In this document: one piece after another, positions 10,599 through 17,979 of the stretch | Layout of the letters: the number at the start of each line of letters is the position of its first letter | How positions within the stretch are numbered: position 1 is the first letter of the stretch | Source: Gracilimonas tropica DSM 19535 | GTDB lineage: Bacteria; Bacteroidota; Rhodothermia; Balneolales; Balneolaceae | Length of the DNA: 47,132 bases | Assembly: GCF_000375425.1 (NCBI RefSeq) | Contig: NZ_AQXG01000017.1 | Coordinates: 805 to 47,936, forward strand | Reading direction: 5' to 3' | Notes under the pieces: generated by a model | Seen by the model: the letters and a program-made list of their open reading frames with translations, nothing else | Told to the model about the DNA's origin: nothing | Databases searched by the model: none | Position numbers and translations under genes: made by a program

Positions 10599-10952
10599 AT
10601 GCATAAAAATAATCTCTACGATAAAGCTTATGCTTTTGCAATCCGGATTGTTAAAGGATATCAATTCTTAAGTAAAGAAAAACGAGAATTTATTCTTTCA
10701 AAACAGTTACTTCGTAGTGGAACAAGTATTGGTGCAAACATTGCTGAAGCCAATGGAGGTATTTCAAAAGCCGATTTTTCGTCTAAAATTTCTATCGCGT
10801 ATAAAGAATCTTTAGAAACAAAATATTGGCTAAACCTATTACACGATACTGACTTCATAAACTCAAAGACGTTTACCAGTATGAATGATGATGCAGATGA
10901 ACTAAGCAGAATTATATTTTCCATATTAAAAACAACCAGAATTGGCAGTTAG
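10599..10952 (+). CDS. Four helix bundle protein (23S rRNA intervening-sequence/S23 family)
   Basis: The 117-residue protein has the family features: an AYAFAIRIVKGYQFL first helix, SKQLLRSGTSIGANIAEANGG in the middle, and KESLETKYWLNLLHDTDF afterwards. Members form pentameric four-helix bundles and are found in rRNA intervening sequences, with Avd of diversity-generating retroelements as a relative. Their function alone is unknown. No reverse transcriptase or template/variable repeat is nearby, so this is not a DGR. It is read against the flanking operon and sits between opposed heptamer repeats, which suggests an inserted unit. Confidence 0.88.
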   Translation: MHKNNLYDKAYAFAIRIVKGYQFLSKEKREFILSKQLLRSGTSIGANIAEANGGISKADFSSKISIAYKESLETKYWLNLLHDTDFINSKTFTSMNDDADELSRIIFSILKTTRIGS

Positions 10953-14010: not shown

Positions 14011-14039
14011 GCATTCCGCAGCAGAGTAGCGGAACGAGT
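14011..14039. repeat. REP-like element, his operon copy 1 (hisC-hisB gap)
   Basis: GCATTCCGCAGCAGAGTAGC followed by GGAACGAG matches copies at 15305-15332 and 16718-16745. The inner part is GC-rich and partly self-complementary (TTCCGC/GCGGAA). Confidence 0.85.
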
Positions 14040-15263: not shown

Positions 15264-15332
15264 GAGGCAGAGCCTGCCTTTGTCGGCAGACAGGCCTCAT
15301 GTTAGCATTCCGCAGCAGAGCAGCGGAACGAG
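15264..15332. repeat. REP-like composite, his operon copy 2 (hisD-hisC gap)
   Basis: GAGGCAGAGCCTGCC...GGCAGACAGGCCTC (15264-15298, able to fold) plus GCATTCCGCAGCAGAGCAGC-GGAACGAG (15305-15332). The same composite recurs at 16677-16745. Confidence 0.9.
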
Positions 15333-16676: not shown

Positions 16677-16745
16677 GAGACAGAACCTGCCTTTGTTGGC
16701 AGACAGGCCTCAATTATGCATTCCGCAGCGGAGCAGCGGAATGAG
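16677..16745. repeat. REP-like composite, his operon copy 3 (hisG-hisD gap)
   Basis: GAGACAGAACCTGCC...GGCAGACAGGCCTC plus GCATTCCGCAGCGGAGCAGC-GGAATGAG matches 15264-15332 in order and orientation. The rest of the gap carries a GGGGAAATTCCTT/CCCTCCCC-type short repeat near 16800. Confidence 0.9.
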
Positions 16746-17852: not shown

Positions 17853-17942
17853 TTAATGCACATGAATATGATGATGCCCTTGATGGGGATGATGGACATC
17901 ATGATGAGAATGGGAAGCGATATGTATGTTGACTTTTATCAC
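17853..17942 (-). CDS. Histidine operon leader peptide
   Basis: A 29-codon ORF with a GTG start (17940-17942) and TAA stop (17853-17855). The product begins MIKVNIHIASHSH and ends HHDVHHPHQGHHHIHVH, with 12 His codons of 29, all in the correct frame and ending 71 bases before hisG. An in-frame TGA sits two codons before the GTG, so no earlier start is possible. Such a His-rich uORF before hisG is the hallmark of ribosome-mediated attenuation: stalling at His codons when His-tRNA is low alters downstream RNA folding. A GTGC/GCAC hairpin and a CTCTTTTTTC run follow, but I cannot see a strong classic terminator by eye. Confidence 0.88.
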   Translation of the reverse strand: MIKVNIHIASHSHHDVHHPHQGHHHIHVH

Positions 17943-17946
17943 GGCT

Positions 17947-17979
17947 CAAAAATAGGGATTGTTTAAAAGCGGTACAACC
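17947..17979 (-). promoter_or_regulatory. Candidate his promoter (TATTTTTG -7 box)
   Basis: On the minus strand TATTTTTG (17947-17954) fits the Bacteroidota -7 consensus TAnnTTTG exactly, with GGTTG (17975-17979) about 20 bases upstream as a weak -33 box. Transcription from it would begin at or within a few bases of the leader GTG, giving a nearly leaderless leader peptide. Confidence 0.5.

Follow-up and report, generated by a model that had tools for sequence, protein, structure and literature searches.

Attenuation of the his operon is textbook knowledge in enterobacteria, where the control is ribosome-mediated and exerted via the hisL leader. The locus analyzed here raises the question of how such a control would operate if the leader began at the first base of its message and no usual transcription stop signal lay between it and hisG. 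In the window, that is, the whole analyzed stretch of 47,132 nucleotides, the genes hisG, hisD, hisC, hisB, and hisH are all found in the same direction, on the minus strand, and a short histidine-rich reading frame precedes them (Table 1). Taken jointly, a histidine-sensing leader, leaderless and devoid of an intrinsic terminator, is the probable reading of this region. A his leader peptide is a known kind of element, and leader peptides that are leaderless or lack a terminator have been described in other bacteria; the predicted leaderless start, the hairpin at the stop codon, and the missing terminator are what set this variant apart.

Table 1. Features of the his leader region and of the downstream his genes in the window.
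Feature	Position	Strand	Remarks
TTG, -33-type promoter element	17977-17975	minus	20 nt 5' of the box; at -33 if the GTG is +1
-7 box TATTTTTG (TAnnTTTG)	17954-17947	minus	ends 4 nt before the leader GTG
Leader peptide ORF, hisL-like	17942-17853	minus	GTG start, 29 codons, 12 His, TAA stop
P1, hairpin within the His-codon run (ATGATGTCC / GGGCATCAT)	17902-17871	minus	folding
P2, stop-codon hairpin, GTGC - loop ATTAAAG (holds TAA) - GCAC	17861-17847	minus	4 bp in the window
G-poor, pyrimidine-rich spacer preceding hisG	17846-17782	minus	base composition
hisG, ATP phosphoribosyltransferase, long form	17781-16900	minus	TIGR00070, 206.4 bits; TIGR03455 C-terminal domain, 104.9 bits
hisD	16661-15348	minus	TIGR00069, 510.4 bits
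hisC	15225-14173	minus	TIGR01141, 373.3 bits
hisB	13971-13087	minus	NF002111 covers residues 101-294
hisH	13080-12466	minus	TIGR01855, 224.2 bits

The histidine-rich leader and its conservation

The leader ORF runs on the minus strand from a GTG (17942-17940) to a TAA (17855-17853) and encodes the peptide MIKVNIHIASHSHHDVHHPHQGHHHIHVH. Between its stop codon and the ATG of hisG (17781), a gap of 71 nt is observed (17852-17782, minus strand). Because an in-frame TGA is present two codons 5' of the GTG (17948-17946), with GCC alone in between, this GTG is the sole possible upstream start of the frame. The sequence-only reading had described a 29-codon ORF with 12 His codons and a fixed GTG at 71 nt from hisG, and this description is exact on the minus strand. 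When the stop-to-stop frames of up to 60 residues in the window are considered, the His density peaks at 12 per 25 residues, with a count of 9 for one stretch; in 60 mononucleotide shuffles of the window, the maxima range from 4 to 7 His and never exceed 7.

For the comparison with related genomes, 165 regions upstream of hisG were reduced to 116 unique ones, 113 of which have at least 250 nt (98 from Balneolales and 15 from elsewhere); L065, where hisG is cut, and L081, which is the window itself, were left out of this set. By a mechanical rule (a short ORF with at least four His codons that ends before hisG), a leader is found in 86 of the 98 Balneolales regions, a few of the 86 being doubtful. 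The presence of the leader in these loci and the shuffled maximum of 7 His argue that the His-rich ORF is not a product of chance. The 12 Balneolales loci that lack it include the family members L162, L163, and L165, whose HisG is just 42-45% identical. A match to hisG is present in 88 of 93 family genomes, and the closest named hisG genes correspond to Gracilimonas and Balneola records, with 94-95% identity.

Histidine accounts for 710 of the 2071 codons of the 86 leaders. When 20 leaders from a single clade are aligned, His prevails in 10 columns, of which 8 contain CAT as well as CAC. Moreover, the majority identity in this alignment is 0.81, 0.80, and 0.74 at codon positions 1, 2, and 3, respectively, the third being the most variable. 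Conserved His codons upstream of orthologous hisG genes were what the sequence-only reading had proposed to look for, and their recurrence in Balneolales, together with the exchange of CAT and CAC, bears out the signature of his attenuation that was claimed there. Judged from these comparisons, the leader ORF is real, conserved, and functional-looking, and very probably it corresponds to a His leader peptide that would sense histidine shortage during its own translation.

At 30 hisA loci, taken as a control (fetched out of 38 genomes with a match), the upstream ORFs never exceed 3 His in 9 residues, three of the loci being cut by a contig end, with the scanned stretch perhaps misplaced; in the own genome, hisA lies on a different contig from hisG. 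Also, no clear leader is observed in front of leuA-type genes (30 loci) or of pheA-type genes (30 loci), the latter being a weak negative because the stretch scanned preceded the matched domain, which may be inside the gene. A genome-wide pattern search for His-codon runs returns 68 forward and 102 reverse matches. At the Rfam gathering threshold, the single match in the whole window is a tRNA and no leader element is recovered (the Rfam His leader is RF00514). The minimum free energy obtained by folding the whole leader is ordinary, with a z value of -0.46.

A functional His-rich small protein, for example a metal-binding one that precedes hisG by chance, would also have a high His content, and the GHHH stretch common to many leaders of one clade could be taken in this sense. 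However, the length and the sequence of the peptide differ between genera, the ORF is present before hisG and absent before hisA, and trpE and ilvD are preceded by leaders of matching composition, which makes this explanation highly improbable.

A predicted promoter at the leader start codon

The promoter region was compared over 91 leaders, that is, the 86 from Balneolales and five from outgroups, L073 being dropped as spurious. The start codon is GTG in 51 of them, ATG in 38, and TTG in 2. TAnnTTT is found before 64 of the 91 leaders and the complete TAnnTTTG before 34; at a spacing of 3 to 6 nt, the complete box precedes 31 of the 91 leaders and only 2 of 308 control gene starts, a mechanically called set that contains some wrong starts. 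The box ends 4 nt before the start codon in 40 of the 91 leaders and 5 nt before it in 36, and one or the other of these values is observed in 75 of the 86 from Balneolales, although these counts lean to 4-5 nt because the starts were picked with a mild preference for that spacing among in-frame candidates. Without the preference, 34 of the 86 leaders with a good box have a spacing of 4 nt and 24 have one of 5 nt.

In Flavobacterium psychrophilum, according to the part of the source drawn on here, the housekeeping box occupies positions -12 to -5 relative to the transcript start (PMC9723704). Given this position and the 4 nt that separate TATTTTTG from the GTG, the predicted +1 is the G of the leader GTG (17942). 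The earlier proposal that the -7 box places the transcript start at or near the GTG, with translation from a leaderless RNA, agrees with both the F. psychrophilum interval and the narrow spacing in Balneolales. Since this spacing is kept in most of the leaders, leaderless translation looks conserved, and for the leader as such we consider it very likely on sequence grounds. Of the 86 Balneolales leaders, 41 have a TTG ending 19-21 nt upstream of the box, so that this -33-type element is common but not general; a TTTG near -33 is given for Bacteroides fragilis in the relevant section of PMC7366714.

The GTG start codon calls for a mild caution on the leaderless reading, because leaderless GUG is reported, in the passages used here, to be far less efficient than AUG in Escherichia coli and more efficient in some other species (PMC9031893). 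If the reading is true, the locus would allow regulated leaderless translation to be tested in the branch of the Bacteroidota, for which few leaderless messages are reported: in the portions of the sources consulted, they amount to 5.5% in F. psychrophilum (PMC9723704), and about 3.7% of the messages of Bacteroides thetaiotaomicron have a 5' UTR shorter than 10 nt.

Hairpins, terminators, and the spacer before hisG

The 5' arm of P2 is made of the last two leader codons (GTG CAY), and its GCAC partner is located just 3' of the stop codon; for the window, an automated stem listing chose a different, A/T-richer stem rather than P2. Among 37 leaders that end in GTGC plus one base and the stop codon, 31 contain a GCAC no more than 45 nt away from the stop, with 2.0 expected from shuffles, and six control tetramers give 0, 8, 0, 0, 0, and 2 matches, the 8 corresponding to CACG. 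In the 49 leaders with other endings, GCAC is found in 8, with 4.4 expected. The stems at the P2 position vary in sequence yet they pair, as seen for GTGC/GCAC, ATGCGC/GCGCAT, ACGC/GCGT, and CGTGC/GCACG. In Fodinibius, other hairpins are found in place of P2, one inside the leader end (GGCGGT/ACCGTC) and a second one after the stop (GTAGC/GCTAC, GGCAGC/GCTGCC).

Folding, stems, and spacers were analyzed in 78 of the 91 leaders; the 13 omitted are six of one small-genome type, L057, L122, for which the assigned start codon is probably wrong, and the five outgroups. In this set, the best-stem score is 9.29 compared with 6.71 in shuffled sequences, a stop-spanning stem over the threshold is present in 52 of the 78 leaders, and it beats its own shuffles in 27 at the 5% level and in 37 at the 10% level, these counts not being independent events because the leader sequences are related. 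With respect to P1, different stems are found in its region in other genera (GGCGGT/ACCGTC, CTGCC/GGCAG), and peptide conservation may explain part of P1, since it lies in coding sequence. A pairing between the 3' arm of P1 and the 5' arm of P2, seen by eye in a few sequences, was rejected because stem listing and folding did not reveal it as general.

To model a stalled ribosome, the 5' region of the leader was kept from pairing in constrained folding; under this condition, the final 12 nt of the ORF favor downstream over upstream partners in 66 of the 78 leaders. In the stalled state, the P2 5' arm pairs little with upstream bases, with a mean of 0.09, and the mean downstream pairing of P2 is 0.37 over the 78 leaders, compared with 0.35 without a ribosome. 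P2 can then refold once the ribosome is gone, as its pairing is the same in both situations. The mutually exclusive structures that had been proposed as a check did not emerge: by eye and by constrained folding, a search that was not exhaustive, no conserved OFF structure and no conserved competitor of P2 were found. P2 occupies the position of the antiterminator arm in the trp leader, and that it acts as a switch read by the ribosome is moderately probable.

A scan with the terminator consensus between 17600 and 18150 finds none. A detector of a hairpin plus a T tract gives a match in 6 of the 86 Balneolales his leaders, three of which are P2 itself (L012, L087, and L089), two are inside the ORF (L030 and L038), and one is at the leader end (L052). 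Applied to the 29 trp leaders of the family, this detector recovers 20, all 29 being found by a direct pattern (CCC[AG]CTG with the arm that matches it and six or more T), which corresponds to a sensitivity of about 70%. The sequence-only reading had seen no strong terminator and had thought of a different switch; the scarcity of matches in the family is in line with this, and where a terminator would be expected, a hairpin at the stop codon and a spacer poor in G are observed.

The trp and ilv leaders of the Balneolaceae resemble the his leader in their cognate codons and in a pairing arm near the leader end, and differ from it in having a strong terminator with a long T tract. Leaders with WWW, once WCW, followed by a terminator, precede trpE in 29 of the 30 loci fetched (L167-L196). 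In all 29, an arm [CT]AG[TC]GG can compete with the terminator by pairing with its first arm, as a classical antiterminator does; by eye, a TATATTC-type box is seen about 7 nt before the ATG of many trp leaders. For ilvD (L360-L378), Ile/Val-rich leaders are found in many of the 19 loci scanned (24 fetched), and in the 10 loci checked for terminators, seven were identified by the detector and the other three by eye.

Outside the Balneolales, a terminator between the His leader and hisG is present in 11 of 28 loci from Bacteroidota outside the class and in 3 of 12 loci within the class but outside the order, the outgroup Bacteroidota loci being a chosen sample and the survey partial. In 20 loci from other families of the order, no terminator lies between leader and hisG, the one match, at L277, being in a locus without a leader. 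Within the limits of this survey, the his terminator looks lost in Balneolales, because it is rare in the 86 leaders and present in part of the other Bacteroidota. Also, in outgroup Bacteroidota the spacing from box to leader goes from 5 to 34 nt, where a box is seen.

Leaders of a further type were observed before thrA-type aspartokinase genes. They are Thr/Ile-rich, end in TTP or TP, have the stop codon in a CCCCTTAGGGG hairpin, and occur in 3 of 30 aspartokinase loci (L388, L397, and L396, the last in the own genome, on contig C3 near 249345), where the terminator detector gives no match. The one of the own genome ends in TIITTP, with ACCCC-TTAG-GGGGT around the stop. Its putative box, TAGACTAA, is located 5 nt before the ATG and is a poor match to TAnnTTTG.

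The his leader could also follow classical attenuation if P2 were a weak intrinsic terminator with a U-rich stretch and an antiterminator had been overlooked. For example, L012, L087, and L089 have CTGTTTTT or CTTTTTTG after P2, and of 52 leaders, 12 have five consecutive T in the first 10 nt after P2, compared with 5 that have them at 20-30 nt. However, the T content shows no peak after P2, being 0.44 at the first three positions and 0.34-0.56 over the next 39, the stems are mostly of 4-6 bp, and the logic would be reversed, with P2 formed on an early stall and blocked by a ribosome at the stop codon. The weak upstream pairing of the P2 5' arm is a further point against this explanation, which we consider unlikely. 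As a general case, P2 as an intrinsic terminator was rejected on the base profile after the hairpin, the three leaders mentioned being those that resemble one.

The spacer of the his leaders departs from other gene starts in base composition. Between -60 and -12 before hisG, G makes up 5.2% of the bases in the 78 leaders, compared with 17.0% for a control set of 310 gene starts from which hisG was removed, with starts called mechanically and some loci from outgroups; 148 gene starts that still include hisG copies give 12.3%. At most one G is found in 25.6% of the hisG spacers and in no control, and a C/G ratio of at least 5 in 51.3% of the spacers vs 1.3% of the controls. The median of the best 78-nt C/G ratio is 3.67 in leaders and 1.57 in controls; in the window this ratio is 4.11, a value reached by 2.9% of the controls. 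Moreover, pairing is low in the spacer, being 0.20-0.25 at +30 to +55 after the stop. In composition and low pairing, the spacer has what is expected of a Rho-dependent attenuator, namely, a C-rich, G-poor, and little-structured segment. The own genome has two strong matches to Rho (L257/L258), of 592 bits in a 525-aa frame and of 415 bits in 401 aa, below the family cut-off, and three further weak ones under 45 bits. Rho as the terminator of his leader transcription is put forward tentatively, with somewhat less than even confidence.

The G depletion could instead serve an unstructured hisG start. Alternatively, the leader would control the translation of hisG, either because the position of the ribosome alters access to the hisG start or because terminating ribosomes scan on and re-initiate. 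The G-poor and little-paired spacer fits with this, and in Mycobacterium smegmatis leaderless polycysteine sORFs regulate downstream translation via attenuation, as stated in the part of PMC9031893 used here. Nonetheless, folding reveals no structure over the hisG start that could be opened, re-initiation would lower hisG under histidine shortage, which is the wrong sign, and the 71 nt were judged far for translational coupling. Control of hisG translation by the leader is rather unlikely.

Proposed mechanism, known systems, and the his cluster

A His-sensing leader-peptide attenuator is highly probable from the comparisons above. It would act as a ribosome-mediated attenuator of the hisGDCBH cluster, with charged histidyl-tRNA as the signal. 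Transcription would begin at the G of the leader GTG, and ribosomes would load at the 5' end of the leaderless RNA. If histidine is short, the ribosome would stall in the run of His codons and cover the 5' half, and the leader end would be free for P2 to fold. If histidine is plentiful, the ribosome would reach the stop codon in the P2 loop, hold P2 open, and then leave. After its exit, the RNA from leader to spacer would be C-rich, G-poor, and unguarded, and transcription would stop short of hisG or within its first part, with Rho, inferred as the simplest effector, as the most likely agent. By analogy with the trp leaders, P2 would be the ON state, and in place of the missing terminator that would oppose it stands the C-rich, G-poor, and little-paired spacer. 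Since P2 can form again once the ribosome has left, the Rho step must depend on timing or on masking of the leader by the ribosome. The off-switch is then probably unlike the textbook one, because of the leaderless start and the lack of the usual transcription stop signal.

The location of P2 at the leader end would also suit a pausing of the RNA polymerase that synchronizes it with the ribosome, termination taking place elsewhere in the operon, and P2 is about as large as a pause hairpin; we regard this arrangement as distinctly unlikely. The preferred reading, of a His-sensing leaderless attenuator without intrinsic terminator, differs from pausing, from translational control, and from a weak intrinsic terminator mainly in the last step.

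If the preferred reading is true, one family has two designs of leader peptide, with intrinsic terminators in trp and ilv and without them in his, and perhaps in thr in a few cases. This would provide a natural comparison for how the position of the ribosome is read without a terminator hairpin, and it lets one ask whether leaderless initiation was selected for tying the first ribosome to the emerging RNA. A broader proposal is that the Balneolales have, next to the classical attenuator, a second, terminator-less one, in which translation from the first base and the state of the stop-codon hairpin would gate Rho in the G-poor spacer; the thrA-type leader would maybe be a second example, and loss of the intrinsic terminator kept in other Bacteroidota would be the origin of the his system. 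In this extended form, the proposal is doubtful.

As in the hisL of Salmonella and E. coli, a run of His codons is found in a short leader before hisG, for which control by the ribosome is the natural interpretation. Unlike it, the leader of the window has no intrinsic terminator, is predicted to be leaderless, has the stop codon in a hairpin loop, and lacks an Rfam match at the gathering threshold. The Balneolaceae belong to the Bacteroidota in the wide sense, and so do F. psychrophilum and the sampled loci of which some, unlike the his leaders described here, keep a terminator between the His leader and hisG, with the wider spacing already given. In F. psychrophilum and other Flavobacteriaceae, the same gene is preceded by a conserved structured 5' element with no Rfam hits, and for F. 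psychrophilum clues for leader-peptide attenuation 5' of amino-acid operons are described, both in the sections of PMC9723704 drawn on here.

Leaderless short ORFs rich in one amino acid are also known from Actinobacteria. In M. smegmatis, leaderless polycysteine sORF attenuators tune downstream genes (parts of PMC9031893 and PMC9094748), and for the cys leaders of Mycobacterium, which have polyY motifs and no terminators, Rho was suggested, in a prediction that the authors themselves call weak (part of PMC1262725). The phylum and the amino acid are different from those of the his leader, and a stop-codon hairpin or a family-wide G-depleted spacer is not described in the portions of these papers considered here. 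Leaderless leader peptides are also reported for Streptomyces lividans, for example LeuL1, some of them with no typical Rho-independent terminator according to the excerpt of PMC8079986 used. LeuL1 resembles the his leader in these two features and differs from it in the amino acid (leucine), in the lineage, and in the pseudoknot of the LEU element that leuA leaders carry (part of PMC1262725). In a survey of his genes across the superphylum (PMC8305728), the word 'leader' is absent and attenuation appears once, on E. coli and Salmonella. Among the matches listed from open-licence papers, none names the Balneolaceae, which is weak evidence that the his leader of this family has no print record.

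Other features of the cluster were observed. In HisB, about 100 aa at the N-terminus are outside the dehydratase models; an orphan terminal domain is reported for HisB of Balneolota in the part of PMC8305728 used here. The palindrome TTCCGCTnCTCnGCTGCGGAA is found in near-identical copies at 14014-14034, 15308-15328, and 16721-16741 (minus strand), one for each of the large gaps hisG-hisD, hisD-hisC, and hisC-hisB, and a search of the window that allows 2 mismatches gives no further copy. Of the 413 loci fetched, L081 alone, which overlaps this region, has an exact match, and the palindrome looks like a REP-type repeat within the his operon. Finally, a four-helix-bundle protein (TIGR02436, 105 bits) is encoded at 10599-10952 on the plus strand, isolated between genes of the opposite strand.
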